A stretch of 64,000 bases of DNA from Tubulanus polymorphus (taxonomy: Eukaryota; Nemertea; Palaeonemertea; Tubulaniformes; Tubulanidae). The stretch spans positions 1 through 64,000 of the forward strand of contig NW_027437451.1 in the NCBI RefSeq assembly GCF_964204645.1, written 5' to 3'. Numbering within the stretch: the first letter of the stretch is position 1; each line of letters begins with the position of its first letter. Positions 1-21,600 of this stretch are shown here, one piece after another. The notes under the pieces are model-generated. The model ran no database searches and was not told where the DNA came from. It saw only the letters and a program-made list of their open reading frames with translations. The translations under genes and the position numbers were made by a program.

Positions 1-1
1 T

Positions 2-2889: not shown

Positions 2890-2897
2890 TATAAAAA
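2890..2897 (+). promoter_or_regulatory. TATA box (TATAAAAA) of unit 2
   Basis: TATAAAAA is followed 28 nt later by a TTCAGC initiator-like sequence (A at 2918). The spacing suits a pol II core promoter, with transcription starting around 2918 and the ORF1 ATG at 2921. The messenger would then have almost no 5' UTR, and the 0.9-kb leader would lie upstream of the start site. The match is identical in units 3 and 4. Confidence 0.55.
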
Positions 2898-2920
2898 CCC
2901 GTGTCTAATCCTAGTTCAGC

Positions 2921-4483: not shown

Positions 4484-4510
4484 GTATTAGTGAGACCAAC
4501 GGGTCCACTA
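4474..4510 (+). promoter_or_regulatory. -1 programmed ribosomal frameshift signal joining ORF1 to ORF2 (unit 2)
   Basis: The last sense codons of ORF1 are GGT TTA AAC before TAA. They contain T TTA AAC, a classical X XXY YYZ slippery heptamer (4474-4480) in the correct phase. After a 7-nt spacer comes a hairpin: TAGTG (4488-4492), a bulged A, GACC (4494-4497), loop AACG, then GGTC (4502-4505) and CACTA (4506-4510). Slipping back one base puts the ribosome in the ORF2 frame from 4480, which is open to 6939. ACCAA (4495-4499) can also pair with TTGGT (4511-4515), an alternative fold. The signal is unchanged in units 3 and 4. Confidence 0.75.
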
Positions 4511-6939
4511 TTGGTGAGTTAAATCAACCGGAATTAACCAATGCTTCTCTGATTTCTTCCATTTCCAGGTCCGACGAACACGAAGAACCGGCACCAAACC
4601 AAGCGCGACGCGATCCGGTCACCGCTCTCGGGAGCCCGGTGGTCAACCTCACACGTTCACTCCGCCTAAGTCCGGCGCAACATCAGCTACTCCGAAAGGG
4701 CCTCACTTATTGCCCGACTCCAAAAATCGGTTCTGATGCCGCCGCGACCGAGCGCACCAAGGGAGTGTGCCGATTCAACCGGCTAGTGAAACTCGACCAT
4801 CACTTCCGAGACAAACCGGACCGCGAGGCTCCGCGTTTCCGTCTGCCCAGCAGTTGGGCTCCGGATGAAATAGAACCAGTAATCGCCGGGTTCTGCAACG
4901 ACGCGCACGAATTGGCTCAACAAACCAGGGATACGCGTCGCGTAAATGATAACCTCACTAAACAGGAACGCGAAGCCCTCCAGCAGCTGCGTGACAACAC
5001 TAATATTGTCATCAAAGCCGCCGATAAGGGTTCCGCTACGGTTATCATGGACCGCGACGACTACGTCCACGAAGCCATGCGCCAACTAGCCGATCTCGAG
5101 TATTATCAGCCGCTGCAGCAACCGATCTTCGAACAGACCGGGGAAGAAATTCGCGAAATCATCGAAAATATGGCTCGACGAAAAATCATCCCGCTAAAAA
5201 CCGCCGAATATCTATTACCGCCCGATAATCCGAAACAGAGGCAGTTCTATCTGCTTCCCAAAATCCATAAAGAACGCGAGAAGTGGACGGTACCCGATCG
5301 CGTACCGCCGGGGAGACCGATCGTCTCCGACTGCGGCTCCGAAACCTACGAAATTTCGGAATGGATCGACTACTATTTGCAGCCGATCGCCCGCGGTCAC
5401 CCGTCGTACGTCAAAGATACCAACCACTTTCTAGATATTTTGGCCGGTAAACAATTTAGCGCCGATGCGTTACTCGTCACCATGGACATCGATTCGCTCT
5501 ACACCAACATCCCCCACGAAGAGGGTATCGCCAGCATCCGACAAGCTCTCCGAGATAACCCAAACCCGGGACGCCCGGATGCCGAGCTGCTGAAACTACT
5601 CGAAATCAGCCTGAAGAAAAATGACTTTAACTTTAACGAAAACACATATTTACAGGTAAAAGGTACCGCAATGGGTAAGCGTTTTGCTCCTTCTTATGCC
5701 AATATCTTTGTAGCCGAATGGGAAAAAGAGGGTCTGTCCAGAAGCGAACTCCAACCATCGCTATACGCTCGGTTCATCGACGACATCTACATAGTTTGGG
5801 AACACGGCCGCGAAACGTTGATGCAATTCATCGACGTCCTACAAACAGTGAGCCGATCCATCAAACTCAAGTTCGAAATCAGCGACACCAGCGTCAACTT
5901 CCTGGACGTAACCACTTTCAAAGGCCCGCGATTCGAGACAAGTGGCACAGTAGACACCAAAGTCTACTTCAAACCAACCGATTCGCATCAATTACTACAT
6001 CGATCCTCGTTTCACCCTAAACACACATTTTCCGGTATAGTTAAAAGTCAAATTCTCCGGTTCCGGCGCATCTGCAATAACGATTCGGACTTACACGCAG
6101 CGTCCGGAACCGTCCTTAAAGTACTCAGAGGTCGTGGCTACAAAGACCGCGAACTGCGACACATCAAAAGCCAAGCTCTACGGCACCACGCCGAACGAGA
6201 TCTACGAGAACAACAACGGGCCGACGAACCGCCGAAAAAGCGTTTACCGCTTATCTTACCTCACTCCGAAGCCAACCGAACCCTAGCCCGTAACATCCGA
6301 ACCAGATTTACGGAACTGGCTACGGCCACCGGCCGGTCTGACGAGGTAACCACGGTCACCGCCTACACCAAGCACAAGAGTCTCAAAGATCTCCTAACTT
6401 CGTCGCAGCTCAAACCCACGGAGCCACCCCCTCCCCGAGTCCCCTCTTCACCGCATCGTAACAGAAATACTTCCGTTGTTTCCAATTCTTCTATTTCCAG
6501 GTCTACTCAAAGAACTCCGTCAACCCGACGTCGAGGCACCGAGAAATGCAGAACACCGAGATGTCGTACGTGTCCACTCGTCCGAGAAACAACCGTTTGC
6601 CGCAGCCACAACAAAATGCACGCGATCCGCAGCACAATTAATTGCGCGACCCGTGAAATTGTATACTGCATCGAATGCACCAAGTGCAACATGCTGTACG
6701 TCGGCCAAACCGGAATGTCTCTACGAGAACGCGTCACTCATCACGTCTCACGCATCAGAACGAAGAATTCGACTCCAGTCTCGGACCACTTCAACCAAGT
6801 CGACCACACCCGCGAACACTTTCGGGTGTACGGTCTCCAACACCTACCAGGCTCCACGAGACCGATCCGCGAAGCAGCCGAACAAGACTGGATACGACGA
6901 CTCGACACGAACACGCCCCGAGGCATGAACGTCCCGTAG
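4480..6939 (+). CDS. PLE ORF2: reverse transcriptase with C-terminal Cys-rich GIY-YIG endonuclease, read by -1 frameshift
   Basis: The frame is open for 819 codons from the frameshift point. No ATG occurs before the conserved N-terminal segment LSPAQHQLLRKGL. Possible initiators there are only non-ATG (GTG at 4639). Numbering residues from that GTG: AADKG near 127, FYLLPKIHK 203-211, GRPIVS 225-230, the motif A acids MDID 282-285, GTAMGKRFAPSYAN 342-355, FIDDI 379-383 (motif C, both Asp present) and NFLDV 420-424. A basic linker follows, then Cys 637, 642, 645 and 654, and a GIY-YIG nuclease: VYC near 675-677, LYVGQTG 686-692, SLRER 694-698, and a C-terminal Glu-Trp region (E748, W751) ending in PRGMN. 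This is the canonical PLE order with the nuclease C-terminal. It copies element RNA into DNA at a nicked or exposed chromosomal end in the nucleus. All catalytic residues I can place are intact. A fusion with ORF1 would be about 1340 residues. Confidence 0.9.
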   Translation, partial: LSISETNGSTIGELNQPELTNASLISSISRSDEHEEPAPNQARRDPVTALGSPVVNLTRSLRLSPAQHQLLRKGLTYCPTPKIGSDAAATERTKGVCRFNRLVKLDHHFRDKPDREAPRFRLPSSWAPDEIEPVIAGFCNDAHELAQQTRDTRRVNDNLTKQEREALQQLRDNTNIVIKAADKGSATVIMDRDDYVHEAMRQLADLEYYQPLQQPIFEQTGEEIREIIENMARRKIIPLKTAEYLLPPDNPKQRQFYLLPKIHKEREKWTVPDRVPPGRPIVSDCGSETYEISEWIDYYLQPIARGHPSYVKDTNHFLDILAGKQFSADALLVTMDIDSLYTNIPHEEGIASIRQALRDNPNPGRPDAELLKLLEISLKKNDFNFNENTYLQVKGTAMGKRFAPSYANIFVAEWEKEGLSRSELQPSLYARFIDDIYIVWEHGRETLMQFIDVLQTVSRSIKLKFEISDTSVNFLDVTTFKGPRFETSGTVDTKVYFKPTDSHQLLHRSSFHPKHTFSGIVKSQILRFRRICNNDSDLHAASGTVLKVLRGRGYKDRELRHIKSQALRHHAERDLREQQRADEPPKKRLPLILPHSEANRTLARNIRTRFTELATATGRSDEVTTVTAYTKHKSLKDLLTSSQLKPTEPPPPRVPSSPHRNRNTSVVSNSSISRSTQRTPSTRRRGTEKCRTPRCRTCPLVRETTVCRSHNKMHAIRSTINCATREIVYCIECTKCNMLYVGQTGMSLRERVTHHVSRIRTKNSTPVSDHFNQVDHTREHFRVYGLQHLPGSTRPIREAAEQDWIRRLDTNTPRGMNVP

Positions 6940-7007
6940 ACCGCCTCACTACAACAATTAACTCTCACTACTTTTTTACAGGGATAACCCGCTGCCCGTG
7001 CACTAGT

Positions 7008-7036
7008 GGGGTCTCCAAACCTTCGGTTTGGTCCCC
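7008..7036 (+). other. 3'-UTR hairpin next to telomere tract (unit 2)
   Basis: The sequence and position match 1915-1943: a CCAAACC/GGTTTGG stem inside GGGG/CCCC. The 3' UTR between the ORF2 stop (6939) and the tract is only about 114 nt, and I see no AATAAA polyadenylation signal in it. Confidence 0.7.
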
Positions 7037-7053
7037 TAACCTCTATCTCTAAA

Positions 7054-7085
7054 CCTAACCCTAACCCTAACCCTAACCCTAACCC
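7054..7085 (+). repeat. Telomeric (CCTAAC)n tract between units 2 and 3
   Basis: This 32-bp perfect tract has the same length and phase as 1961-1992. An equal length at two junctions fits copying or unequal exchange of a whole unit plus tract better than two independent telomere additions. Confidence 0.97.
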
Positions 7086-7982
7086 GGATTAAAGAAGAGA
7101 TCATAGTGTTTTTGAACCACTCAAACTACGCAAGCTTAAACCGATTTACTGAATACCCGCGCTCCGGTCTGAATATATTTGTCACATGTTCAAGTTCACA
7201 TAGCTTTACTCGATCCTAATAACTCTAAATAAGCGTAGTTTATCTAATAGAATTATATTTAAGAACTTAGAATTAAAACAGACGTATTAGTAAGACATTT
7301 CTATCAAAACTCGTCACCCATAATTAGGGCTAATTAACCACCCGCGCTCACTCAGTAATTTAGATCTTACGGGTTATAACTTCCTACTAAATCGCCGACG
7401 CCGCGCTGTCTAATTCATCCAATTTTCGGTAGAATACCGCGTAGATATTTCAAGATCCGCTCTTAAAATCTTTAGAATACGGAGAAAACTTGATTAACTA
7501 GGAACCGGATTTCACCATTTACGACTATTTAGTAAACACGCGTATATCGGAATACGCCCCGGCCGCGCACCGCTAATTAACGCGTCTAAACTAATTAGGA
7601 ATTAAGCAATTTTGAAACTGAACTCGGACATATTTCGAACATTCCGGTTCACGTATATTAATAATACATATTCTAGATTTCTCTTTATAGAAAACACTTT
7701 GAGTATTTATTAGGTTATATCGAAATAAACTTTTCAATTCTATATTAGACACGCCGTTCTTTAGATCTCTAGAACTATACATCAAAGCAAACTATTCAAC
7801 AGCTAGATCAAGGGCCATAATTAGTGCTGTTTTCTAGTCACTCTGGATCAAAGGCATAATTAGTCAGACCCCTAGTTTGTCTATTAGCTTGATCACAGAA
7901 GTACAATTAGTCTAGATCACAAGGTCTCATATGGTCACTTAACTTCTAACTCGAATACTGTTCACTTGTTGCGCGCTGCGTG
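7086..7982 (+). promoter_or_regulatory. PLE 5' leader region (unit 3)
   Basis: This is non-coding and the same as 1993-2889. It includes the inverted repeat at 7321-7336 and the iterated GATCA block at about 7804-7938. Nothing else is recognised in it. Confidence 0.58.
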
Positions 7983-7990
7983 TATAAAAA
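7983..7990 (+). promoter_or_regulatory. TATA box (unit 3)
   Basis: TATAAAAA lies 31 nt ahead of the ORF1 ATG at 8014, as in unit 2. Confidence 0.55.
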
Positions 7991-8013
7991 CCCGTGTCTA
8001 ATCCTAGTTCAGC

Positions 8014-9576
8014 ATGATTCCTGCACTGACACTGACGAAGGCAACCTCGCCGAAATATCTGTCAATGGAGCGATCTACTCGAAAGAAGAAACGACCACCA
8101 GCTGAGAAGACCAGCAAGGGCGGAGGACGCCCTGAGCGACACCAGCAACCCGGGATGTCGCCGAAAAATTACTATAGAGCTCTTCAAGTGGCGCACCACC
8201 TTGCCCAGTTGAGCTCTGGTCCGAAAGCGATTCGGAGGAAGAAGGACCATCTGAAGATGTTCCTGCGGCCGGCGGCTTGCACCGAAGCAGTAACGGTGCA
8301 GCTGCACGCTGCCGCGGACGTCTGGATGGAGACAGTTTCGAAAGAGCTGACCATCCATTACGCTGCCACATTTGTTCAGCTAATGGGTGATCCTCTGCCG
8401 GACTGTCTATCAGCACAGGATGTCGCCCTGACATGGGCCCGGAGGAATTTCGGCTCCCGTCTGAGCCCCGGAACGATCCGGCTTTTCAACATCGCGCTGG
8501 ATTTGCGGTCGAAATTCCGCGGTCAGGCTCTGTCTGACAAACTCAGAAATGTCCTATCTAACCCACCTTCTTCCCCTTCTCATTTCAGGTCACACCACCA
8601 GGAGGCACCCACGGAGCCGAAGATTCGTCCGCCGCCGAGACCGAGCCGGAAGATTCGAAAGCCCGCGACGCCGAGGACGCCTGCACCAACCGCAGCCGCG
8701 CCCGCCGCGCCCACAGCGCCTCCTTCTTTTTCTGATTCCAGGTCACCGAGAAGCTACGCGGATGTCACCAGGACGCCACCAACCAGAATGGCGCCACCAC
8801 CGAGAAGCCCGATGCCGACGCCGCCGCCGCCGCCACCAAGAAGTCCGACGCCACCGAGAAGTCCGACGCCGCCGCCTCGAAACCCGACGCCGCCGCCGCC
8901 GCAGAGAACGCCGACCGCACCAACCAGCAGTCCGACGCCGTCTCTCTCTTCTTCTCTTTCCAGCTCTCCGTCTCATTACAGGTCACCAGGGCGCCTACTG
9001 CCAGCGCGAAGTCCGACGCCAACACCGAGACCGATGGCGCCCCAGGAAGTTCGCCGTCATCCGAAAACGGGTCGGAAGAAACAGGATTGGAGTCTGCCAC
9101 CAACCCGGCGACCCATTCTGGTGATTGGTGACTCAAATCTGAGTAACATCACATCAAGCCGCCGTCCGGATGACGTCCAGATCGAGAGCTTCCCCGGCTG
9201 CAAGATAGCTCATCTCGCCGACCTGATCGATGCTGTACCGGAGCGCCGAGATCGCCCGGATACGGTGATCATCAGCGTCGGAATCAACAACCGCGACAAC
9301 AACTTCGAAGCGACCGCCAAGAAGACCACACAGCGCCTGATCAACGCCGCAGTCAAGAAGTATCAGCACTCGTTCGTCCACTTCGTTCAACTCAACACGA
9401 CCCGCGAACACCAGCAGTTCGCCCGGAAGTTCAACGAATTCCTCGAGAATCACGACGACGTCACCGCGATACCACCCATCGATGATCGACGCTTCAGAGT
9501 TGTTGGAGACGGGATCCACTGGAACCGTGGTACAGCTAACACCCTGCTGGACCACTGGCTCAGTGGTTTAAACTAA
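8014..9576 (+). CDS. PLE ORF1 with SGNH hydrolase domain (unit 3)
   Basis: The 520 residues are the same as the unit 2 protein, including the SGNH nucleophile in VIGDSNLS, the GINN block and the DGIHW Asp/His pair. The reading frame is intact and ends at the TAA that directly follows the slippery heptamer. The lack of change from unit 2 points to recent duplication or gene conversion, so it is not independent evidence of selection on the domain. Confidence 0.88.
   Translation: MIPALTLTKATSPKYLSMERSTRKKKRPPAEKTSKGGGRPERHQQPGMSPKNYYRALQVAHHLAQLSSGPKAIRRKKDHLKMFLRPAACTEAVTVQLHAAADVWMETVSKELTIHYAATFVQLMGDPLPDCLSAQDVALTWARRNFGSRLSPGTIRLFNIALDLRSKFRGQALSDKLRNVLSNPPSSPSHFRSHHQEAPTEPKIRPPPRPSRKIRKPATPRTPAPTAAAPAAPTAPPSFSDSRSPRSYADVTRTPPTRMAPPPRSPMPTPPPPPPRSPTPPRSPTPPPRNPTPPPPQRTPTAPTSSPTPSLSSSLSSSPSHYRSPGRLLPARSPTPTPRPMAPQEVRRHPKTGRKKQDWSLPPTRRPILVIGDSNLSNITSSRRPDDVQIESFPGCKIAHLADLIDAVPERRDRPDTVIISVGINNRDNNFEATAKKTTQRLINAAVKKYQHSFVHFVQLNTTREHQQFARKFNEFLENHDDVTAIPPIDDRRFRVVGDGIHWNRGTANTLLDHWLSGLN
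8027..8064 (+). ncRNA. Hammerhead-ribozyme-like motif (unit 3)
   Basis: It has the same stem I, CTGACGA core, GGC/GCC stem II with the extra A, and GAAA-TATC as at 2934-2971. Predicted cleavage is after C8059. In a read-through transcript, cleavage here and in unit 2 would release a 5093-nt RNA spanning one repeat period. Confidence 0.42.
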
Positions 9577-9603
9577 GTATTAGTGAGACCAACGGGTCCA
9601 CTA
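9567..9603 (+). promoter_or_regulatory. -1 frameshift signal (unit 3)
   Basis: TTTAAAC is at 9567-9573, stop TAA at 9574-9576, and the bulged 9-bp hairpin at 9581-9603 after a 7-nt spacer. Confidence 0.74.
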
Positions 9604-12032
9604 TTGGTGAGTTAAATCAACCGGAATTAACCAATGCTTCTCTGATTTCTTCCATTTCCAGGTCCGACGAACACGAAGAACCGGCACCAAACCAAGCGCG
9701 ACGCGATCCGGTCACCGCTCTCGGGAGCCCGGTGGTCAACCTCACACGTTCACTCCGCCTAAGTCCGGCGCAACATCAGCTACTCCGAAAGGGCCTCACT
9801 TATTGCCCGACTCCAAAAATCGGTTCTGATGCCGCCGCGACCGAGCGCACCAAGGGAGTGTGCCGATTCAACCGGCTAGTGAAACTCGACCATCACTTCC
9901 GAGACAAACCGGACCGCGAGGCTCCGCGTTTCCGTCTGCCCAGCAGTTGGGCTCCGGATGAAATAGAACCAGTAATCGCCGGGTTCTGCAACGACGCGCA
10001 CGAATTGGCTCAACAAACCAGGGATACGCGTCGCGTAAATGATAACCTCACTAAACAGGAACGCGAAGCCCTCCAGCAGCTGCGTGACAACACTAATATT
10101 GTCATCAAAGCCGCCGATAAGGGTTCCGCTACGGTTATCATGGACCGCGACGACTACGTCCACGAAGCCATGCGCCAACTAGCCGATCTCGAGTATTATC
10201 AGCCGCTGCAGCAACCGATCTTCGAACAGACCGGGGAAGAAATTCGCGAAATCATCGAAAATATGGCTCGACGAAAAATCATCCCGCTAAAAACCGCCGA
10301 ATATCTATTACCGCCCGATAATCCGAAACAGAGGCAGTTCTATCTGCTTCCCAAAATCCATAAAGAACGCGAGAAGTGGACGGTACCCGATCGCGTACCG
10401 CCGGGGAGACCGATCGTCTCCGACTGCGGCTCCGAAACCTACGAAATTTCGGAATGGATCGACTACTATTTGCAGCCGATCGCCCGCGGTCACCCGTCGT
10501 ACGTCAAAGATACCAACCACTTTCTAGATATTTTGGCCGGTAAACAATTTAGCGCCGATGCGTTACTCGTCACCATGGACATCGATTCGCTCTACACCAA
10601 CATCCCCCACGAAGAGGGTATCGCCAGCATCCGACAAGCTCTCCGAGATAACCCAAACCCGGGACGCCCGGATGCCGAGCTGCTGAAACTACTCGAAATC
10701 AGCCTGAAGAAAAATGACTTTAACTTTAACGAAAACACATATTTACAGGTAAAAGGTACCGCAATGGGTAAGCGTTTTGCTCCTTCTTATGCCAATATCT
10801 TTGTAGCCGAATGGGAAAAAGAGGGTCTGTCCAGAAGCGAACTCCAACCATCGCTATACGCTCGGTTCATCGACGACATCTACATAGTTTGGGAACACGG
10901 CCGCGAAACGTTGATGCAATTCATCGACGTCCTACAAACAGTGAGCCGATCCATCAAACTCAAGTTCGAAATCAGCGACACCAGCGTCAACTTCCTGGAC
11001 GTAACCACTTTCAAAGGCCCGCGATTCGAGACAAGTGGCACAGTAGACACCAAAGTCTACTTCAAACCAACCGATTCGCATCAATTACTACATCGATCCT
11101 CGTTTCACCCTAAACACACATTTTCCGGTATAGTTAAAAGTCAAATTCTCCGGTTCCGGCGCATCTGCAATAACGATTCGGACTTACACGCAGCGTCCGG
11201 AACCGTCCTTAAAGTACTCAGAGGTCGTGGCTACAAAGACCGCGAACTGCGACACATCAAAAGCCAAGCTCTACGGCACCACGCCGAACGAGATCTACGA
11301 GAACAACAACGGGCCGACGAACCGCCGAAAAAGCGTTTACCGCTTATCTTACCTCACTCCGAAGCCAACCGAACCCTAGCCCGTAACATCCGAACCAGAT
11401 TTACGGAACTGGCTACGGCCACCGGCCGGTCTGACGAGGTAACCACGGTCACCGCCTACACCAAGCACAAGAGTCTCAAAGATCTCCTAACTTCGTCGCA
11501 GCTCAAACCCACGGAGCCACCCCCTCCCCGAGTCCCCTCTTCACCGCATCGTAACAGAAATACTTCCGTTGTTTCCAATTCTTCTATTTCCAGGTCTACT
11601 CAAAGAACTCCGTCAACCCGACGTCGAGGCACCGAGAAATGCAGAACACCGAGATGTCGTACGTGTCCACTCGTCCGAGAAACAACCGTTTGCCGCAGCC
11701 ACAACAAAATGCACGCGATCCGCAGCACAATTAATTGCGCGACCCGTGAAATTGTATACTGCATCGAATGCACCAAGTGCAACATGCTGTACGTCGGCCA
11801 AACCGGAATGTCTCTACGAGAACGCGTCACTCATCACGTCTCACGCATCAGAACGAAGAATTCGACTCCAGTCTCGGACCACTTCAACCAAGTCGACCAC
11901 ACCCGCGAACACTTTCGGGTGTACGGTCTCCAACACCTACCAGGCTCCACGAGACCGATCCGCGAAGCAGCCGAACAAGACTGGATACGACGACTCGACA
12001 CGAACACGCCCCGAGGCATGAACGTCCCGTAG
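9573..12032 (+). CDS. PLE ORF2, reverse transcriptase/GIY-YIG endonuclease (unit 3)
   Basis: This intact copy has the same product as unit 2 ORF2, entered by frameshift at 9573. The RT motifs MDID and FIDDI, the Cys cluster and LYVGQTG are all present. No ATG lies between the frameshift site and the conserved N-terminal region. The first candidate non-ATG initiator is GTG at 9732. The stop is TAG at 12030-12032. Confidence 0.9.
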   Translation, partial: LSISETNGSTIGELNQPELTNASLISSISRSDEHEEPAPNQARRDPVTALGSPVVNLTRSLRLSPAQHQLLRKGLTYCPTPKIGSDAAATERTKGVCRFNRLVKLDHHFRDKPDREAPRFRLPSSWAPDEIEPVIAGFCNDAHELAQQTRDTRRVNDNLTKQEREALQQLRDNTNIVIKAADKGSATVIMDRDDYVHEAMRQLADLEYYQPLQQPIFEQTGEEIREIIENMARRKIIPLKTAEYLLPPDNPKQRQFYLLPKIHKEREKWTVPDRVPPGRPIVSDCGSETYEISEWIDYYLQPIARGHPSYVKDTNHFLDILAGKQFSADALLVTMDIDSLYTNIPHEEGIASIRQALRDNPNPGRPDAELLKLLEISLKKNDFNFNENTYLQVKGTAMGKRFAPSYANIFVAEWEKEGLSRSELQPSLYARFIDDIYIVWEHGRETLMQFIDVLQTVSRSIKLKFEISDTSVNFLDVTTFKGPRFETSGTVDTKVYFKPTDSHQLLHRSSFHPKHTFSGIVKSQILRFRRICNNDSDLHAASGTVLKVLRGRGYKDRELRHIKSQALRHHAERDLREQQRADEPPKKRLPLILPHSEANRTLARNIRTRFTELATATGRSDEVTTVTAYTKHKSLKDLLTSSQLKPTEPPPPRVPSSPHRNRNTSVVSNSSISRSTQRTPSTRRRGTEKCRTPRCRTCPLVRETTVCRSHNKMHAIRSTINCATREIVYCIECTKCNMLYVGQTGMSLRERVTHHVSRIRTKNSTPVSDHFNQVDHTREHFRVYGLQHLPGSTRPIREAAEQDWIRRLDTNTPRGMNVP

Positions 12033-12100
12033 ACCGCCTCACTACAACAATTAACTCTCACTACTTTTTTACAGGGATAACCCGCTGCCCGTGCACTAGT

Positions 12101-12129
12101 GGGGTCTCCAAACCTTCGGTTTGGTCCCC
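12101..12129 (+). other. 3'-UTR hairpin next to telomere tract (unit 3)
   Basis: This is the same stem as in the other units. The flanking words CCCGCTGCCCGTGC and CTAGTGGGG on its 5' side, and CCCCTAACCTCTATCTCTA on its 3' side, recur in the neighbouring SINEs. Confidence 0.7.
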
Positions 12130-12146
12130 TAACCTCTATCTCTAAA

Positions 12147-12166
12147 CCTAACCCTAACCCTAACCC
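12147..12166 (+). repeat. Telomeric (CCTAAC)n tract between unit 3 and SINE copy 1
   Basis: This is a 20-bp perfect tract. It separates the element lead-in CTCTAAA from GAGGTCACAGG of the SINE. Confidence 0.95.
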
Positions 12167-12491
12167 GAGGTCACAGGAAATGACAGTCGTCGGTCTGCCC
12201 AGGTAGCTCAACTGGTAGAGCAGTCGTCCGGCAAACGAAAGGTCCGTGGTTCGAGTCCCGGTCTAGGTGGTGGACTGTGCTTTTCCCGATGCCCCTAACT
12301 CTAATGCCTTCCGACAGGTGGGAGTTAGCCTGATTTCCCGCTGCCCGTGCTCTAGTGGGGAACTGAAAAAGAAATTAATTAATACATCTCGATTAACAGT
12401 CTCGGGGGTTAATCTGAAGAACACACTTGTCATATAATTAATATTCAAATTCAAAAATTGGTTCCCCTAACCTCTATCTCTATACCTAACC
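12167..12491 (+). mobile_element. tRNA-derived SINE with PLE-like 3' tail, copy 1
   Basis: A tRNA-like head (12197-12268) is followed by a unique body and a tail shared with the PLE 3' end: CCCGCTGCCCGTGC, CTAGTGGGG, then CCCCTAACCTCTATCTCTA and CCTAACC. The head folds as a 72-nt cloverleaf with a perfect D stem. It has mismatches in the acceptor, anticodon and T stems and C instead of U at position 33 (anticodon would be GGC), so it is not a working tRNA gene. Within the body, CTAACTC (12295-12301) pairs with GAGTTAG (12322-12328). In the tail, GGGGAAC (12357-12363) pairs with GTTCCCC (12461-12467), echoing the PLE terminal stem. The shared tail implies that the PLE reverse transcriptase mobilises it. 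The copy lacks 27 bp found at the start of copy 2. Confidence 0.82.
12204..12258 (+). promoter_or_regulatory. RNA polymerase III internal promoter (A and B boxes), SINE copy 1
   Basis: The A box TAGCTCAACTGG is at 12204-12215. The B box GGTTCGAGTCC at 12248-12258 is a perfect match to GGTTCGANTCC. The 32-nt gap is normal for tRNA-type promoters. Confidence 0.85.
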
Positions 12492-12837
12492 TCAGCCTGT
12501 GCCAGGAATGAAGGAATGCGAGGTCACAGGAAATGACAGTCGTCGGTCTGCCCAGGTAGCTCAACTGGTAGAGCAGTCGTCCGGCAAACGAAAGGTCCGT
12601 GGTTCGAGTCCCGGTCTAGGTGGTGGACTGTGCTTTTCCCGATGCCCCTAACTCTAATGCCTTCCGACAGGTGGGAGTTAGCCTGATTTCCCGCTGCCCG
12701 TGCTCTAGTGGGGAACTGAAAAAGAAATTAATTAATACATCTCGATTAACAGTCTCGGGGGTTAATCTGAAGAACACACTTGTCATATAATTAATATTCA
12801 AATTCAAAAATTGGTTCCCCTAACCTCTATCTCTATA
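12492..12837 (+). mobile_element. tRNA-derived SINE with PLE-like 3' tail, copy 2
   Basis: The sequence repeats copy 1 with a 353-bp offset. The tRNA-like head is at 12550-12621. The first 27 bp (12492-12518) have no partner in copy 1. Its tail enters a long CCCTAA tract. The 27-bp extra may be the true 5' end of the SINE or captured flanking DNA. Confidence 0.82.
12557..12611 (+). promoter_or_regulatory. RNA polymerase III internal promoter (A and B boxes), SINE copy 2
   Basis: The A box is at 12557-12568 and the B box at 12601-12611, unchanged from copy 1. Confidence 0.85.
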
Positions 12838-12893
12838 CCTAACCCTAACCCTAACCCTAACCCTAAACCTAACCCTAACCCTAACCCTAACCC
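12838..12893 (+). repeat. Telomeric tract between SINE copy 2 and PLE unit 4
   Basis: These 56 bp of CCTAAC repeat are the longest tract in the window. They contain one variant (CTAAACCTAACC) in the middle, the same AAACCTAACC phrase found where PLE 3' ends enter the repeats. The tract may therefore be two joined segments. Confidence 0.95.
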
Positions 12894-13790
12894 GGATTAA
12901 AGAAGAGATCATAGTGTTTTTGAACCACTCAAACTACGCAAGCTTAAACCGATTTACTGAATACCCGCGCTCCGGTCTGAATATATTTGTCACATGTTCA
13001 AGTTCACATAGCTTTACTCGATCCTAATAACTCTAAATAAGCGTAGTTTATCTAATAGAATTATATTTAAGAACTTAGAATTAAAACAGACGTATTAGTA
13101 AGACATTTCTATCAAAACTCGTCACCCATAATTAGGGCTAATTAACCACCCGCGCTCACTCAGTAATTTAGATCTTACGGGTTATAACTTCCTACTAAAT
13201 CGCCGACGCCGCGCTGTCTAATTCATCCAATTTTCGGTAGAATACCGCGTAGATATTTCAAGATCCGCTCTTAAAATCTTTAGAATACGGAGAAAACTTG
13301 ATTAACTAGGAACCGGATTTCACCATTTACGACTATTTAGTAAACACGCGTATATCGGAATACGCCCCGGCCGCGCACCGCTAATTAACGCGTCTAAACT
13401 AATTAGGAATTAAGCAATTTTGAAACTGAACTCGGACATATTTCGAACATTCCGGTTCACGTATATTAATAATACATATTCTAGATTTCTCTTTATAGAA
13501 AACACTTTGAGTATTTATTAGGTTATATCGAAATAAACTTTTCAATTCTATATTAGACACGCCGTTCTTTAGATCTCTAGAACTATACATCAAAGCAAAC
13601 TATTCAACAGCTAGATCAAGGGCCATAATTAGTGCTGTTTTCTAGTCACTCTGGATCAAAGGCATAATTAGTCAGACCCCTAGTTTGTCTATTAGCTTGA
13701 TCACAGAAGTACAATTAGTCTAGATCACAAGGTCTCATATGGTCACTTAACTTCTAACTCGAATACTGTTCACTTGTTGCGCGCTGCGTG
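12894..13790 (+). promoter_or_regulatory. PLE 5' leader region (unit 4)
   Basis: This is non-coding, and I found no differences from unit 2 by eye. It includes the inverted repeat at 13129-13144 and the iterated GATCA block at about 13612-13746. Confidence 0.58.
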
Positions 13791-13798
13791 TATAAAAA
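13791..13798 (+). promoter_or_regulatory. TATA box (unit 4)
   Basis: TATAAAAA lies 31 nt before the ORF1 ATG at 13822. It is retained in the oldest unit. Confidence 0.55.
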
Positions 13799-13821
13799 CC
13801 CGTGTCTAATCCTAGTTCAGC

Positions 13822-15381
13822 ATGATTCCTGCACTGACACTGACGAAGGCAACCTCGCCGAAATATCTGTCAATGGAGCGATCTACTCGAAAGAAGAAAC
13901 GACCACCAGCTGAGAAGACCAGCAAGGGCGGAGGACGCCCTGAGCGACACCAGCAACCCGGGATGTCGCCGAAAAATTACTATAGAGCTCTTCAAGTGGC
14001 GCACCACCTTGCCCAGTTGAGCTCTGGTCCGAAAGCGATTCGGAGGAAGAAGGACCATCTGAAGATGTTCCTGCGGCCGGCGGCTTGCACCGAAGCAGTA
14101 ACGGTGCAGCTGCACGCTGCCGCGGACGTCTGGATGGAGACAGTTTCGAAAGAGCTGACCATCCATTACGCTGCCACATTTGTTCAGCTAATGGGTGATC
14201 CTCTGCCGGACTGTCTATCAGCACAGGATGTCGCCCTGACATGGGCCCGGAGGAATTTCGGCTCCCGTCTGAGCCCCGGAACGATCCGGCTTTTCAACAT
14301 CGCGCTGGATTTGCGGTCGAAATTCCGCGGTCAGGCTCTGTCTGACAAACTCAGAAATGTCCTATCTAACCCACCTTCTTCCCCTTCTCATTTCAGGTCA
14401 CACCACCAGGAGGCACCCACGGAACCGAAGATTCGTCCGCCGCCGAGACCGAGCCGGAAGATTCGAAAGCCCGCGACGCCGAGGACGCCTGCACCAACCG
14501 CAGCCGCGCCCGCCGCGCCCACAGCGCCTCCATCTTTTTCTGATTCCAGGTCACCGAGAAGCTACGCGGATGTCACCAGGACGCCACCAACCAGAATGGC
14601 GCCACCACCGAGAAGTCCGATGCCGACGCCGCCGCCGCCACCAAGAAGTCCGACGCCACCGAGAAGTCCGACGCCGCCGCCTCGAAACCCGACGCCGCCG
14701 CCGCCGCAGAGAACGCCGACCGCACCAACCAGCAGTCCGACGCCGTCTCTCTCTTCTTCTCTTTCCAGCTCTCCGTCTCATTACAGGTCACCAGGGCGCC
14801 TACTGCCAGCGCGAAGTCCGACGCCAACACCGAGACCGATGGCGCCCCAGGAAGTTCGCCGTCATCCGAATACGGGTCGGAAGAAACAGGATTGGAGTCT
14901 GCCACCAACCCGGCGACCCATTCTGGTGATTGGTGACTCAAATCTGAGTAACATCACATCAAGCCGCCGTCCGGATGACGTCCAGATCGAGAGCTTCCCC
15001 GGCTGCAAGATAGCTCATCTCGCCGACCTGATCGATGCTGTACCGGAGCGCCGAGATCGCCCGGATACGGTGATCATCAGCGTCGGAATCAACAACCGCG
15101 ACAACAACTTCGAAGCGACCGCCAGGAAGACCACACAGCGCCTGATCAACGCCGCAGTCAAGAAGTATCAGCACTCGTTCGTCCACTTCGTTCAACTCAA
15201 CACGACCCGCGAACACCAGCAGTTCGCCCGGAAGTTCAACGAATACCTCGAGAATCACGACGACGTCACCGCGATACCACCCATCGATGATCGACGCTTC
15301 AGAGTTGTTGGAGACGGGATCCACTGGAACCGTGGTACAGCTAACACCCTGCTGGACCACTGGCTCAGTGGTTTAAACTAA
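13822..15381 (+). CDS. PLE ORF1 with SGNH hydrolase domain (unit 4)
   Basis: The protein has 519 residues, one fewer than in the other units because a proline codon is missing from the PPPPP run of the linker. Substitutions seen are K to N in the PKTGRKKQ segment, K to R in ATAKKT, and F to Y in NEFLEN. None touches the hydrolase motifs VIGDSNLS, SVGINN or DGIHW. The frame is intact to the stop, which abuts the slippery heptamer. Confidence 0.88.
   Translation: MIPALTLTKATSPKYLSMERSTRKKKRPPAEKTSKGGGRPERHQQPGMSPKNYYRALQVAHHLAQLSSGPKAIRRKKDHLKMFLRPAACTEAVTVQLHAAADVWMETVSKELTIHYAATFVQLMGDPLPDCLSAQDVALTWARRNFGSRLSPGTIRLFNIALDLRSKFRGQALSDKLRNVLSNPPSSPSHFRSHHQEAPTEPKIRPPPRPSRKIRKPATPRTPAPTAAAPAAPTAPPSFSDSRSPRSYADVTRTPPTRMAPPPRSPMPTPPPPPRSPTPPRSPTPPPRNPTPPPPQRTPTAPTSSPTPSLSSSLSSSPSHYRSPGRLLPARSPTPTPRPMAPQEVRRHPNTGRKKQDWSLPPTRRPILVIGDSNLSNITSSRRPDDVQIESFPGCKIAHLADLIDAVPERRDRPDTVIISVGINNRDNNFEATARKTTQRLINAAVKKYQHSFVHFVQLNTTREHQQFARKFNEYLENHDDVTAIPPIDDRRFRVVGDGIHWNRGTANTLLDHWLSGLN
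13835..13872 (+). ncRNA. Hammerhead-ribozyme-like motif (unit 4)
   Basis: The motif is unchanged from unit 2, including the extra A before stem II. Predicted cleavage is after C13867. Because so little has changed between units, the comparison offers no compensatory substitutions to test the fold. Confidence 0.42.
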
Positions 15382-15408
15382 GTATTAGTGAGACCAACGG
15401 GTCCACTA
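15372..15408 (+). promoter_or_regulatory. -1 frameshift signal (unit 4)
   Basis: TTTAAAC is at 15372-15378, TAA at 15379-15381, and the hairpin at 15386-15408. The signal is preserved although substitutions occur nearby, for example TTAACC to TTGACC at 15432. Confidence 0.75.
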
Positions 15409-17837
15409 TTGGTGAGTTAAATCAACCGGAATTGACCAATGCTTCTCTGATTTCTTCCATTTCCAGGTCCGACGAACACGAAGAACCGGCACCAAACCAA
15501 GCGCGACGCGATCCGGTCACCGCTCTCGGGAGCCCGGTGGTCAACCTCACACGTTCACTCCGCCTAAGTCCGGCGCAACATCAGCTACTCCGAAAGGGCC
15601 TCACTTATTGCCCGACTCCAAAAATCGGTTCTGATGCCGCCGCGACCGAGCGCACCAAGGGAGTGTGCCGATTCAACCGGCTAGTGAAACTCGACCATCA
15701 CTTCCGAGACAAACCGGACCGCGAGGCTCCGCGTTTCCGTCTGCCCAGCAGTTGGGCTCCGGATGAAATAGAACCAGTAATCGCCGGGTTCTGCAACGAC
15801 GCGCACGAATTGGCTCAACAAACCAGGGATACGCGTCGCGTAAATGATAACCTCACTAAACAGGAACGCGAAGCCCTCCAGCAGCTGCGTGACAACACTA
15901 ATATTGTCATCAAAGCCGCCGATAAGGGTTCCGCTACGGTTATCATGGACCGCGACGACTACGTCCACGAAGCCATGCGCCAACTAGCCGATCTCGAGTA
16001 TTATCAGCCGCTGCAGCAACCGATCTTCGAACAGACCGGGGAAGAAATTCGCGAAATCATCGAAAATATGGCTCGACGAAAAATCATCCCGCTAAAAACC
16101 GCCGAATATCTATTACCGCCCGATAATCCGAAACAGAGGCAGTTCTATCTGCTTCCCAAAATCCATAAAGAACGCGAGAAGTGGACGGTACCCGATCGCG
16201 TACCGCCGGGGAGACCGATCGTCTCCGACTGCGGCTCCGAAACCTACGAAATTTCGGAATGGATCGACTACTATTTGCAGCCGATCGCCCGCGGTCACCC
16301 GTCGTACGTCAAAGATACCAACCACTTTCTAGATATTTTGGCCGGTAAACAATTTAGCGCCGATGCGTTACTCGTCACCATGGACATCGATTCGCTCTAC
16401 ACCAACATCCCCCACGAAGAGGGTATCGCCAGCATCCGACAAGCTCTCCGAGATAACCCGAACCCGGGACGCCCGGATGCCGAGCTGCTGAAACTACTCG
16501 AAATCAGCCTGAAGAAAAATGACTTTAACTTTAACGAAAACACATATTTACAGGTAAAAGGTACCGCAATGGGTAAGCGTTTTGCTCCTTCTTATGCCAA
16601 TATCTTTGTAGCCGAATGGGAAAAAGAAGGTCTGTCCAGAAGCGAACTCCAACCATCGCTATACGCTCGGTTCATCGACGACATCTACATAGTTTGGGAA
16701 CACGGCCGCGAAACGTTGATGCAATTCATCGACGTCCTACAAACAGTGAGCCGATCCATCAAACTTAAATTCGAAATCAGCGACACCAGCGTCAACTTCC
16801 TGGACGTAACCACTTTCAAAGGCCCGCGATTCGAGACAAGTGGCACAGTAGACACCAAAGTCTACTTCAAACCAACCGATTCGCATCAATTACTACATCG
16901 ATCCTCGTTTCACCCTAAACACACATTTTCCGGTATAGTTAAAAGTCAAATTCTCCGGTTCCGGCGCATCTGCAATAACGATTCGGACTTACACGCAGCG
17001 TCCGGAACCGTCCTTAAAGTACTCAGAGGTCGTGGCTACAAAGACCGCGTACTGCGACACATCAAAAGCCAAGCTCTACGGCACCACGCCGAACGAGATC
17101 TACGAGAACAACAACGGGCCGACGAACCGCCGAAAAAGCGTTTACCGCTTATCTTACCTCACTCCGAAGCCAACCGAACCCTAGCCCGTAACATCCGAAC
17201 CAGATTTACGGAACTGGCTACGGCCACCGGCCGGTCTGACGAGGTAACCACGGTCACCGCCTACACCAAGCACAAGAGTCTCAAAGATCTCCTAACTTCG
17301 TCGCAGCTCAAACCCACGGAGCCACCCCCTCCCCGAGTCCCCTCTTCACCGCATCGTAACAGAAATACTTCCGTTGTTTCCAATTCTTCTATTTCCAGGT
17401 CTACTCAAAGAACTCCGTCAACCCGACGTCGAGGCACCGAGAAATGCAGAACACCGAGATGTCGTACGTGTCCACTCGTCCGAGAAACAACCGTTTGCCG
17501 CAGCCACAACAAAATGCACGCGATCCGCAGCACAATTAATTGCGCGACCCGTGAAATTGTATACTGCATCGAATGCACCAAGTGCAACATGCTGTACGTC
17601 GGCCAAACCGGAATGTCTCTACGAGAACGCGTCACTCATCACGTCTCACGCATCAGAACGAAGAATTCGACTCCAGTCTCGGACCACTTCAACCAAGTCG
17701 ACCACACCCGCGAACACTTTCGGGTGTACGGTCTCCAACACCTACCAGGCTCCACGAGACCGATCCGCGAAGCAGCCGAACAAGACTGGATACGACGACT
17801 CGACACGAACACGCCCCGAGGCATGAACGTCCCGTAG
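15378..17837 (+). CDS. PLE ORF2, reverse transcriptase/GIY-YIG endonuclease (unit 4)
   Basis: The frame of 819 codons from the frameshift site is intact to TAG at 17835-17837. One amino-acid change from units 1-3 is visible, E to V in the KDRELRH segment after the RT core, with several silent changes elsewhere. RT and nuclease motifs are complete. A TTG at 15432 is created by a substitution, but a eukaryotic ribosome is unlikely to use it, so frameshifting remains the better explanation for translation. Confidence 0.9.
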   Translation, partial: LSISETNGSTIGELNQPELTNASLISSISRSDEHEEPAPNQARRDPVTALGSPVVNLTRSLRLSPAQHQLLRKGLTYCPTPKIGSDAAATERTKGVCRFNRLVKLDHHFRDKPDREAPRFRLPSSWAPDEIEPVIAGFCNDAHELAQQTRDTRRVNDNLTKQEREALQQLRDNTNIVIKAADKGSATVIMDRDDYVHEAMRQLADLEYYQPLQQPIFEQTGEEIREIIENMARRKIIPLKTAEYLLPPDNPKQRQFYLLPKIHKEREKWTVPDRVPPGRPIVSDCGSETYEISEWIDYYLQPIARGHPSYVKDTNHFLDILAGKQFSADALLVTMDIDSLYTNIPHEEGIASIRQALRDNPNPGRPDAELLKLLEISLKKNDFNFNENTYLQVKGTAMGKRFAPSYANIFVAEWEKEGLSRSELQPSLYARFIDDIYIVWEHGRETLMQFIDVLQTVSRSIKLKFEISDTSVNFLDVTTFKGPRFETSGTVDTKVYFKPTDSHQLLHRSSFHPKHTFSGIVKSQILRFRRICNNDSDLHAASGTVLKVLRGRGYKDRVLRHIKSQALRHHAERDLREQQRADEPPKKRLPLILPHSEANRTLARNIRTRFTELATATGRSDEVTTVTAYTKHKSLKDLLTSSQLKPTEPPPPRVPSSPHRNRNTSVVSNSSISRSTQRTPSTRRRGTEKCRTPRCRTCPLVRETTVCRSHNKMHAIRSTINCATREIVYCIECTKCNMLYVGQTGMSLRERVTHHVSRIRTKNSTPVSDHFNQVDHTREHFRVYGLQHLPGSTRPIREAAEQDWIRRLDTNTPRGMNVP

Positions 17838-17905
17838 ACCGCCTCACTACAACAATTAACTCTCACTACTTTTTTACAGGGATAACCCGCTGCCCGTGCA
17901 CTAGT

Positions 17906-17934
17906 GGGGTCTCCAAACCTTCGGTTTGGTCCCC
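17906..17934 (+). other. 3'-UTR hairpin next to telomere tract (unit 4)
   Basis: GGGG is at 17906-17909, CCAAACC at 17913-17919, GGTTTGG at 17923-17929 and CCCC at 17931-17934. It is unchanged from the younger units. Confidence 0.7.
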
Positions 17935-17951
17935 TAACCTCTATCTCTAAA

Positions 17952-17971
17952 CCTAACCCTAACCCTAACCC
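17952..17971 (+). repeat. Telomeric (CCTAAC)n tract at the PLE-satellite junction
   Basis: These 20 bp of CCTAAC repeat pass straight into satellite sequence at CCCTAACCC|ATCATTTAAG. The satellite monomer itself has CACCCTAACCCATC at this point, so the joint is in register with the satellite's own telomere-like motif. Confidence 0.93.
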
Positions 17972-18679
17972 ATCATTTAAGATAAAATTCATCATCTTTA
18001 GGACCATATTTTGCAAGAAAAATCTGTATCTTTCAGTCCATCTACTCGAAATCAGTTCAGTTTACCTTAACCTATCATTTCAGATCGAGTCCATCATCTT
18101 CAGGAGCATAAGTACCCAGAAAATTCAGAATCTTTCCACCTATCTATTTGAAATCAGTTCAATACGCCTTAACCCATCTTTTCAGATAGAATCCATCATC
18201 TTCAGAACCAAAAGCAGCCAGAAAATTCTGATTCTTTCCACCTATCTATTTGAAATCAGTTCAGTACACCCTAACCCATCAATTAAGATAGAATTCGTCA
18301 TCTTTAGGACCATATTTTGCAAGAAAAATCTGTATCTTTTAGTCCATCTACTCGAAATCAGTTCAGTTTACCTTAACCTATCATTTCAGATCGAGTCCAT
18401 CATCTTCAGGAGCATAAATAGCCAGAAAATTCTTAATCTTTCCACCTATCTATTTGAAATCAGTTCAATACGCCTTAACCCATCTTTTCAGATTGAGTCC
18501 ATCATCTTCAGAACCAAAGGCAGCAAGAAAATTCTGATTCTGTCAACCTATCTATTTGAAATCAGTTCAGTACACCCCAACCCATCGATTAAGATTGAAT
18601 TCATCATCTTTAGTACCCTATTTTGCAAGAAAAATCTGTATCTTTCAGTCCATCTACTCGAAATCAGTTCAGTTTACCC

Positions 18680-21600
18680 TTAACCTATCATTTCAGATCG
18701 AGTCCATCATCTTCAGGAGCATAAATAGCCAGAAAATTTTTAATCTCTCCACCTATCTATATGAAATCAGTTCAATACGCCTTAGCCCATCTTTTCAGAT
18801 TGAGTCCATCATCTTTAGAACCAAAGGCAGCCAGAAAATTCTGATTCTTTCCACCTATCTATTTGAAATCAGTTCAGTTCACCCTTACCCATCAATTAAG
18901 ATAGAATTCATCATCTTTAGGACCCTATTTTGCAAGAAAAATCTGTATCTTTCAGTCCATCTACTCGAAATCAGTTCAGTTTACCTTAACCTATCATTTC
19001 AGATCGAGTCCATCATCTTCAGAACCAAAAGCAGCCAGAAAATTCTGATTCTTTCAACCTATCTATTTGAAATCAGTTCAGTACACCCTAACCCAAAAAT
19101 TAAGATAGAATTCATCATCTTTAGGACCCTATTTTGCAAGAAAAATGTGTATCTTTCAGTCCATCTACTCGAAATCAGTTCAGTTTACCTTAACCTATCA
19201 TTTCAGATCGAGTCCATCATCTTCAAGCGCATAAATAGCCAGAAAATTCTTAATCTTTCCACCTATCTATTTGAAATCAGTTCAATACGCCTTAACCCAT
19301 CTTTTCAGATTCAGTCCATCATCTTCAGAACCAAAGGCAGCCAGAAAATTCTGATTCTTTCCACCTATCTATTTGAAATCAGTTCAGTTCACCCTAACCC
19401 ATCAATTAAGATAGAATTCGTCATCTTTAGGACCCTATTTTGCAAGAAAAATCTGTATCTTTCAGTCCATCTACTCGAAATCAGTTCAGTTTACCTTACC
19501 CTATCATTTCAGATCGAGTCCATTATCTTCAGGCGCATAAATAGCCAGAAAATTCTTAATCTTTCCACCTATCTATTTGAAATCAGTTCAATACGCCTTA
19601 ACCCATCTTTTCAGATTCAGTCCATCATCTTCAGAACCAAAGGCAGCCAGAAAATTCTGATTCTTTCCACCTATCTATTTGAAATCAGTTCAGTTCACCC
19701 TAACCCATCAATTAAGATAGAATTCGTCATCTTTAGGACCCTATTTTGCAAGAAAAATCTGTATCTTTCAGTCCATGTACTCGAAATCAGTTCAGTTTAC
19801 CTTACCCTATCATTTCAGATCGAGTCCATCATCTTCAGGAGCATAAATAGCCAGAAAATTCTTAATCTTTCCACCTATCTATTTGAAATCAGTTCAATAC
19901 GCCTTAACCCATCTTTTCAGATTGAGTCCATCATCTTCAGAACCAAAGGCAGCCAGAAAATTCTGATTCTTTCCACCTATCTATTTGAAATCAGTTTAGT
20001 TCACCCTAACCCATCAATTAAGATAGAATTCGTCATCTTTAGGACCCTATTTTGCAAGAAAAATCTGTATCTTTCAGTCCATCTACTCGAAATCAGTTCA
20101 GTTTACCTTACCCTATCATTTCAGATCGAGTCCATCATCTTCAGGAGCATAAATAGCCAGAAAATTCTTAATCTTTCCACCTATCTATTTGAAATCAGTT
20201 CAGTACACCCCAACCCATCGATTAAGATTGAATTCATCATCTTTAGTACCCTATTTTGCAAGAAAAATCTGTATCTTTCAGTCCATCTACTCGAAATCAG
20301 TTCAGTTTACCTTAACCTATCATTTCAGATCGAGTCCATCATCTTCAGGAGCATAAATAGCCAGAAAATTCTTAATCTTTCCTCCTATCTATTTGAAATC
20401 AGTTCAATACGCCTTAACCCATCTTTTCAGATTGAGTCCATCATCTTCAGAACCAAAGGCAGCCAGAAAATTCTGATTCTTTCAACCTATCTATTTGAAA
20501 TCAGTTCAGTACACCCTAACCCATCATTTAAGATAGAATTCGTCATCTTTAGGACCATATTTTGCAAGATAAATCTGTATCTTTCAGTCCATCTACTCGA
20601 AATCAGTTCAGTTTACCCTTAACCTATCATTTCAGATCGAGTCCATCATCTTCAGGAGCATAAATAGCCAGAAAATTTTTAATCTCTCCACCTATCTATA
20701 TGAAATCAGTTCAATACGCCTTAGCCCATCTTTTCAGATTGAGTCCATCATCTTTAGAACCAAAGGCAGCCAGAAAATTCTGATTCTTTCCACCTATCTA
20801 TTTGAAATCAGTTCAGTTCACCCTTACCCATCAATTAAGATAGAATTCATCATCTTTAGGACCCTATTTTGCAAGAAAAATCTGTATCTTTCAGTCCATC
20901 TACTCGAAATCAGTTCAGTTTACCTTAACCTATCATTTCAGATCGAGTCCATCATCTTCAGAACCAAAAGCAGCCAGAAAATTCTGATTCTTTCAACCTA
21001 TCTATTTGAAATCAGTTCAGTACACCCTAACCCAAAAATTAAGATAGAATTCATCATCTTTAGGACCCTATTTTGCAAGAAAAATGTGTATCTTTCAGTC
21101 CATCTACTCGAAATCAGTTCAGTTTACCTTAACCTATCATTTCAGATCGAGTCCATTATCTTCAGGCGCATAAATAGCCAGAAAATTCTTAATCTTTCCA
21201 CCTATCTATTTGAAATCAGTTCAATACGCCTTAACCCATCTTTTCAGATTCAGTCCATCATCTTCAGAACCAAAGGCAGCCAGAAAATTCTGATTCTTTC
21301 CACCTATCTATTTGAAATCAGTTCAGTTCACCCTAACCCATCAATTAAGATAGAATTCGTCATCTTTAGGACCATATTTTGCAAGAAAAATCTGTATCTT
21401 TCAGTCCATGTACTCGAAATCAGTTCAGTTTACCTTACCCTATCATTTCAGATCGAGTCCATCATCTTCAGGAGCATAAATAGCCAGAAAATTCTTAATC
21501 TTTCCACCTATCTATTTGAAATCAGTTCAATACGCCTTAACCCATCTTTTCAGATTGAGTCCATCATCTTCAGAACCAAAGGCAGCCAGAAAATTCTGAT

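Follow-up and report, generated by a model that had tools for sequence, protein, structure and literature searches.

In the palaeonemertean ribbon worm Tubulanus polymorphus a tRNA-headed SINE very probably depends on an endonuclease-bearing Penelope-like element (PLE), both appear to be targeted to telomeric (CCCTAA)n, and the arrays they form were seemingly homogenised later by recombination. A PLE-dependent telomeric SINE had been proposed in a preliminary description of the same DNA and is now supported by a 3' module and a 5' end that SINE and PLE share, by a pLTR-like architecture and by common interstitial targets, the dependence itself being read from sequence. The window, the whole stretch of DNA analysed, comprises bases 1-64000 of the 106-kb contig C34 in an assembly of 267.8 Mb and 77 contigs. 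In order it holds PLE units, telomeric repeats, SINE copies 1 and 2, telomeric repeats, a PLE, a telomeric tract and a satellite, with these features:

1993..7060, + strand: 5'-truncated PLE unit, starting GGATTAAAG, which is position 1278 of the PLE 5' reference
7086..12153, + strand: 5'-truncated PLE unit, with 0 differences from the preceding unit in the 5039 bp compared
12081..12153, + strand: tail module of the PLE immediately upstream of the SINE copies (sequence comparison)
12154..12166, + strand: telomeric repeats between the PLE tail and SINE copy 1
12167..12491, + strand: SINE-A copy 1, without the first 28 bp, equal to the 353-bp unit from position 29, with one ACCTAACC at its end directly joined to copy 2
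12197..12269, + strand: tRNA-derived head of SINE copy 1 (Rfam RF00005, 47.3 bits, E 1.6e-7), box words TAGCTCAACTGG at 12204 and GGTTCGAGTCC at 12248
12337..12491, + strand: tail module of SINE copy 1, CCCGCTGCCCGTGC ... CCCCTAACCTCTATCTCTA ... CCTAACC
12492..12844, + strand: SINE-A copy 2, a complete 353-bp unit, TCAGCCTGTGCCAGG ... ACCTAACC, identical to the C10-array unit
12550..12622, + strand: tRNA-derived head of SINE copy 2 (Rfam RF00005, 47.3 bits, E 1.6e-7), box words at 12557 and 12601
12690..12844, + strand: tail module of SINE copy 2 (sequence comparison)
12845..12893, + strand: telomeric repeats between SINE copy 2 and the next, 5'-truncated PLE
12894..17958, + strand: 5'-truncated PLE with intact ORFs, the putative helper
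13822..15381, + strand: PLE ORF1, 519 aa, with a weak GDSL-lipase-like C-terminal match (Pfam PF13472, E 0.026, 15.5 bits, below the cut-off of 32.9)
15432..17837, + strand: PLE ORF2, 801 aa, reverse transcriptase (RVT_1, E 1.2e-7, over the cut-off) and C-terminal GIY-YIG endonuclease (21.2 bits, just below the cut-off of 22.6)
17886..17958, + strand: tail module of the downstream PLE (sequence comparison)
17959..17971, + strand: short telomeric tract leading from PLE to satellite
17972..64000, no strand assigned: satellite of 102 bp, showing higher-order periods of 306 and 408 and presumably lying on the inner side

The SINE pair had earlier been placed at 12167 to 12837; its start stands, but the unit is 353 bp long and begins TCAGCC, so that the copies run from 12167 to 12491 and from 12492 to 12844. 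Both copies had also been said to end in telomeric repeats, which is true of copy 2 (tract 12845-12893) and not of copy 1, where a single ACCTAACC is fused to copy 2. The words thought to be common to PLE and SINE, CCCGCTGCCCGTGC, CTAGTGGGG and CCCCTAACCTCTATCTCTA, are each found at exactly six places in the 64 kb, in four PLE tails and two SINE copies and always on the + strand. The two SINE copies are identical across their overlap and so are probably amplified copies of one insertion rather than two insertions. The 102-bp satellite contains CCCTAACCC-like words, and in several spots (L042, L043 and L062) a short telomeric tract links it to a PLE tail.

Three related forms of the SINE can be told apart. 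The SINE-A unit, with a 353-bp period in arrays of C8, C10 and C66, starts TCAGCCTGTGCCAGG and runs from 58 nt of leader through a tRNA-like domain (Rfam RF00005, E 1.6e-7) and a body to the tail. SINE-B (337 bp) forms arrays on C65, C32, C7 and C10, and shows 79-82% identity in its near-complete copies; the leader 5' of the tRNA domain in the SINE units is 58-60 nt. SINE-C is a third and older family, with 35 matches to one of its tails, and those tails (L105, L106) have the same tail module with a different loop. The Rfam tRNA model exceeds its gathering score at five further loci besides the window copies, ARAGORN run with the bacterial code reported no tRNA in the SINE heads, and the TAGCTCAACTGG and GGTTCGAGTCC words in the head are taken here to be the pol III A and B boxes. 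Many PLEs, if not all, carry a hammerhead motif; a hammerhead or other ribozyme at the SINE unit junction was rejected, since tRNA was the sole Rfam match up to E=1 in the stretches searched (window 1-18500 and ten loci). The octamer GCCNGTGC, or a close variant of it, recurs at either end, 5' head as well as 3' tail, in the PLE and in SINE-A, SINE-B and SINE-C.

The tail module is the first link between SINE and PLE. Its 19-mer occurs 129 times in the 268-Mb genome as against 0 times for a reversed control, and the local alignment of PLE and SINE tails scores 16.5 where 1000 dinucleotide-preserving shuffles average 7.2 and reach 12 at most. A gapped tail pattern, blind by design to the long loops of SINE-A and SINE-B, matches 88 places genome-wide and 0 for the control, 54 of them by hand count in chromosome-end arrays or array scaffolds and 34 interstitial. 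Among the 55 matches listed with their letters the PLE loop is found in 53 and the SINE-C loop in 2, and the other 33 lie on C30, C32, C34, C43, C54, C63, C65 and C66, contigs with this PLE's tail. No LINE with the module was found among the tail matches whose letters or flanks were read, and a LINE origin of the tail was rejected because every tail match read by its letters is PLE or SINE. Patterns for the 3' half, allowing up to 2 mismatches, gave 89 places in one search and 140 in another (first 100 examined). All 89 rows of the former read either as SINE-B, with 0 mismatches, or as SINE-A, with 2 mismatches, so that no PLE with a SINE-B tail was found there and the expectation that SINE tails would track PLE subfamilies is not borne out.

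Six tails were also folded. The minimum-energy folds of the PLE tail, the SINE-B tail and one SINE-C tail (L105) contain a hairpin closed by GGGG/CCCC, its inner arms varying from one to the next; the SINE-A minimum-energy fold has instead an alternative hairpin CCCGCU/AGUGGG with a GGG/CCC-type stem in the centroid only, and the hairpin is absent from the folds of the L106 tail and of the divergent PLE tail of L003. An RNA structure common to PLE and SINE tails is therefore only suggested by these predicted folds. The L003 tail (C2:3.728 Mb) is PLE-like with the same 19-mer and a diverged 5' half, and perhaps belongs to an older PLE lineage. At the right end of C32 the outermost element (L095) is another sort of tail, truncated and reading GCACCGGGGGTGCAAACCCCCAACCTCTATCCCTAAAACCTAACCC, beside 1.3 kb of telomere.

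The second link is at the 5' end. On C4, PLE tails lie about 6354 bp apart and the unit after a tail begins TTAGCCCGTGCCAGG, which is the full-length PLE start; the window PLE units, spaced at 5093 bp, begin at position 1278 of this C4-type 5' sequence and are thus 5'-truncated. The SINE-A start TCAGCCTGTGCCAGG matches the PLE start TTAGCCCGTGCCAGG at 13 of 15 positions, a value equalled by 1 of 200,000 random 15-mers, and the SINE-B start matches it at 10 of 15. The same 5' words are seen at SINE-C junctions, as TTGCCTGTGCCAG in L130 and TAGCCTGTGCCAGG in L137, and an old SINE copy on C8 (L103) starts TTAGCCAGTGCCAGG, again with PLE-type 5' words.

SINE units moreover stand head to tail as PLE pLTRs do, in the 353-bp arrays and in interstitial dimers (L099, L100, L130, L137). 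The SINE-B copy L100, at C4:9.66 Mb, reads from 5' to 3' as repeat target, inverted tail fragment (SINE-B positions 315 to 247), direct partial tail (298 to end), complete SINE-B (99.1% identical over 337 bp to the array unit) and target again. The outermost PLE on C10 (L078), behind the telomere, shows the same succession of an inverted fragment (92 bp), a direct partial tail (66 bp) and a full-length 5' end; the BLAST test for inverted partial copies covers this one PLE and the one SINE, L100. Direct and inverted partial copies are known for PLEs (PMC3846280, as far as its available text goes), and in the available portions of PMC3846280 and PMC11167929 pLTR-like units and 5' copies in inverted orientation are counted among the features of PLEs. 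As judged from these alignments, the SINE has PLE-like terminal sequences at both ends and pLTR-like units.

The putative helper PLE itself is by its predicted coding capacity intact, with reverse transcriptase and GIY-YIG in one ORF. ORF2 encodes 801 aa within 830 open codons, and residues invariant in nine aligned proteins include RT Asp416/417 and the GIY-YIG-type Tyr711, Tyr722, Gly724, Thr726, Arg733, His737, Glu783 and Asn799. Of the 56 copies scored, out of 931 candidates, 48 run through the entire query without interruption at 99-100% identity, 45 of these being in end arrays or array scaffolds and 3 interstitial. A protein search returned a Tubulanus polymorphus PLE protein 97% identical over 73% of the query, and a PDB sequence search with ORF2 returned no match. 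For ORF1 the protein search gave six distant homologues without names, one carrying a precomputed PF13472.

SINE-A and SINE-B are short, dispersed and multicopy, with 83 units in ten clusters, which lie on array scaffolds or at, or close to, the ends of chromosomes, and ten interstitial loci, among the matches listed. The units were grouped by hand from genome-wide matches, and matches to the tRNA part only were set aside; those of the latter that were read are SINE-C, with C10:1484436 left unread. The clusters are on C34 (2 units), C66 (15), C10-left (16 plus 2), C10 at 35.8 kb (1), C8 (7), C7 near the right end (4), C10 near the right end (4), C32 (5), C65 (26) and C9 (1), the terminal position being unproven for C34, C65 and C66, which are unplaced scaffolds, and for the C7 and right-hand C10 clusters. 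CCCTAA tracts were found at 3 of 24 chromosome ends (terminal 2.5-3.5 kb), C8-left, C9-left and C10-left, and SINEs are on all three. The telomeric tracts measure about 1.3 kb at the C10 start, about 1.3 kb at the C32 end and 438 bp behind an N gap on C8, where the SINE array is flanked by this tract and another of about 1.4 kb. Arrays of SINE-B with telomeric repeats also lie beside N gaps at C7:21572509-21573957 (L094) and C10:14064315-14065773 (L093), some 50 kb and 236 kb short of the respective contig ends, and are possible scaffold misjoins of true telomeres.

CCCTAA repeats follow nine of the ten SINE clusters and precede all six whose 5' side is visible; a location of SINE copies at telomeric repeats above chance, as had been anticipated, is in line with this and with the ratio of end clusters to interstitial loci. 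The exception is on C65 (L097, C65:8200-9400), where a SINE-B array is cut short within its tRNA part and continues directly, with neither tail nor telomeric repeats, into an internal position of the PLE, by template switch or recombination. The 5' end points outward in 7/7 SINE clusters with the chromosome end known or inferred from the arm and in 22/22 PLE tails with a known or arm-inferred end (not independent within arrays), the counter-case being one short inverted PLE fragment beside the C10 telomere. Such an orientation would be expected if the G-strand 3' end pairs with CCUAACC of the RNA.

The DNA examined contains 39 distinct junctions from telomeric repeats to downstream sequence, 6 entering SINE, 11 PLE and 22 other DNA (one of these last being an inverted PLE fragment). 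At the 17 SINE and PLE truncation junctions microhomology averages 1.65 bases as against 0.74 in simulation (p 0.001), and 12 of them have at least 1 base (p 0.046). At L104 (C10:9800-10800) an internal PLE stretch ending CCTAA is followed by CCCTAACCCT and then by a truncated SINE, and it looks as if a telomeric overhang had primed inside the PLE RNA.

Away from the ends, SINE-A/B-like sequence is at ten interstitial loci (two on C2, one on C4, three on C5, two on C6, one on C8 and one on C10). The 3' tail is kept at four (C4, C10 and twice on C2) and missing at six, the tailless loci being either old or 3'-truncated. The repeat that holds the C4 SINE (L100) also holds PLEs L004 and L115, and a second target repeat holds PLEs L118, L119 and L129 together with a SINE-A-type tail (L110), each at a telomere-like stretch; matches between target repeats were judged by eye, apart from L100 against L102, compared by BLAST. 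Set against L102, a related unoccupied repeat, L100 shows no clear target-site duplication, the target being repetitive.

How the two elements enter telomeric DNA allows a variant that is compatible with a PLE-dependent SINE and has a little less than an even chance of being right, namely that both insert by endonuclease cutting inside double-stranded telomeric arrays in the style of TRAS and SART. The conserved residues of the GIY-YIG domain that the PLE keeps would fit this, as would interstitial copies in telomere-like stretches and the position of the C8 SINE array, with 438 bp of telomeric repeats on one side and about 1.4 kb on the other. However the truncated 5' ends meet telomeric repeats in five different registers, and in this they resemble healed ends more than the product of a fixed cut.

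A different view is that the SINE arrays are subtelomeric satellites, derived from few ancestral insertions that unequal exchange, break-induced replication or rolling-circle copying carried from one chromosome end to another, while recent retrotransposition contributed little or nothing. Part of the amplification of the SINE/PLE arrays clearly does look recombinational: array units show 100% identity among the genome-wide matches as well as in the window, the two window PLE units agree at every one of 5039 bp, tail spacings indicate that the same truncated units come back within arrays, and on C10 one PLE truncation point comes after both the SINE-B tail and PLE tails. Array units being so uniform, independent transpositions would be few and an exact count is precluded. 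Yet as a complete account the satellite view is distinctly improbable, because it explains array growth but not the distinct SINE truncation points each beside telomeric repeats (six, plus one in L104), nor the interstitial copies with complete tails in telomere-like targets, nor the interstitial SINE-B of L100, which has the inverted structure of a PLE and is 99.1% identical to the array unit. Mobilisation of the SINE by a LINE, with the PLE having got the same tail independently or from the SINE, follows the rule for SINEs with known helpers (PMC6685494, in the part available) but is hardly credible here, given that no LINE was among the tail matches read by letters or flanks (one with a diverged tail would escape) and that the 5' end, the pLTR-like units and the inverted copies at the 5' side are all traits of PLEs (PMC3846280 and PMC11167929, in their available portions).

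Dependence of the SINE on the PLE thus remains the preferred reading, against which count the loss of the tail at 6/10 interstitial loci, the SINE-B tail without a PLE match, the 5' end agreeing at only 13/15 positions in SINE-A and 10/15 in SINE-B, the lack of a clear target-site duplication, the small number of independent transpositions, the leader before the tRNA domain and the C65 join. The cycle it suggests would begin with RNA polymerase III transcribing the SINE from its tRNA-type boxes, often through head-to-tail units; read-through from an upstream unit is assumed since the 58-60 nt leader would not be copied from a start at the tRNA itself. The PLE protein would then bind this RNA by the shared 3' module, and perhaps also by the GCCNGUGC motif that recurs at the 5' end. 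From the orientation and the tail, the CCUAACC end of the RNA could pair with the G-strand 3' end (TTAGGG) and so prime reverse transcription, either where a telomere is exposed or nicked or at an interstitial site that resembles one. The products seen are copies with the 5' end outward, some 5'-truncated and capped by CCCTAA repeats with short microhomology, and others complete and joined directly to a partial or complete neighbour. Telomerase may heal the truncated ends, and recombination or break-induced copying would amplify units into the identical tandem arrays that are observed.

Telomeric retroelements have replaced telomerase in Drosophila. In Tubulanus two telomerase RNA-binding-domain matches above cut-off (C5:22802328-22803024) mark TERT, loss of telomerase was rejected on these exons and the long CCCTAA tracts, and with TERT present in the genome telomerase has not been replaced by retroelements. 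A bolder proposal, to be held only tentatively and rather unlikely, is that PLE and SINEs constitute a second, retroelement-based extension of chromosome ends beside telomerase, the SINE being a mobile, multicopy analogue of the telomere RNA. A telomerase-related reverse transcriptase would there use pol III SINE RNA supplied in trans, the 3' CCUAACC would pair with the G-overhang as the telomerase RNA template does, and units would be added to exposed ends and then capped by telomerase.

SINEs are taken to depend on LINEs, and the reverse transcriptase of PLEs is related to telomerase. If the dependence proposed here is true, such parasitism arose also with the retroelement class of the telomerase-related RT. 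The SINE being short and in three related forms, it points to candidate requirements of the PLE RT in its RNA, namely the tail module, CCUAACC and perhaps GCCNGUGC at both ends, and PLE substrate recognition and telomere priming become directly testable in vitro.

In the literature surveyed, in which subscription papers are covered only in small part, no PLE-partnered SINE was found. The Chlamydomonas element MRC1 may be a non-autonomous PLE. Classical LINE-dependent tRNA SINEs likewise have a tRNA head, a body, a helper-derived 3' tail and no noted ORF; the Tubulanus SINE differs in its helper, apparently a PLE, in its helper-like 5' end and head-to-tail units, in the 58-60 nt before the tRNA domain and in its telomeric location. 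The endonuclease-deficient telomeric PLEs of rotifers and others are also at chromosome ends with telomeric repeats on the truncated 5' end (PMC3846280, available text), whereas the Tubulanus PLE keeps GIY-YIG, is found interstitially at telomere-like sites as well and has SINE partners. Host genes captured between pLTRs in Adineta vaga similarly suggest that PLE termini in cis let a PLE mobilise other sequence in trans, and have direct and inverted partial copies too, but as described in the accessible part of PMC3846280 they are single capture events and not a multicopy tRNA-headed family in three related forms. Metazoan non-LTR retrozymes are again short non-coding tandem units with a proposed PLE helper; in contrast to the Tubulanus SINE, in which no hammerhead was found and which has a tRNA head and both ends matching the PLE, they have hammerhead ribozymes and, according to the accessible part of that review (PMC7761336), no motif that identifies the helper.

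The closest analogue is the pair MoTeR1 and MoTeR2 of Magnaporthe oryzae, for which the following is taken from the available portions of PMC7367193. There too a short element shares both termini with a long RT-encoding one, the two reside in telomeric repeats, head to tail and with their 5' ends facing outward, the truncated copies have caps, 17/23 of them with in-frame seeds, and the arrays change by break-induced events. The differences are that MoTeR1 has a REL-type endonuclease and is likened to TRAS and SART, while the Tubulanus helper would be a PLE, and that MoTeR2, with 860 bp and 77 bp in common with MoTeR1, has an unrelated 786-bp middle, while the Tubulanus SINE has a tRNA head and shares some 15 bp and the tail module with its PLE. 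By analogy, then, MoTeR2 is a precedent close in architecture with another enzyme class, and the retrozymes are a looser one.
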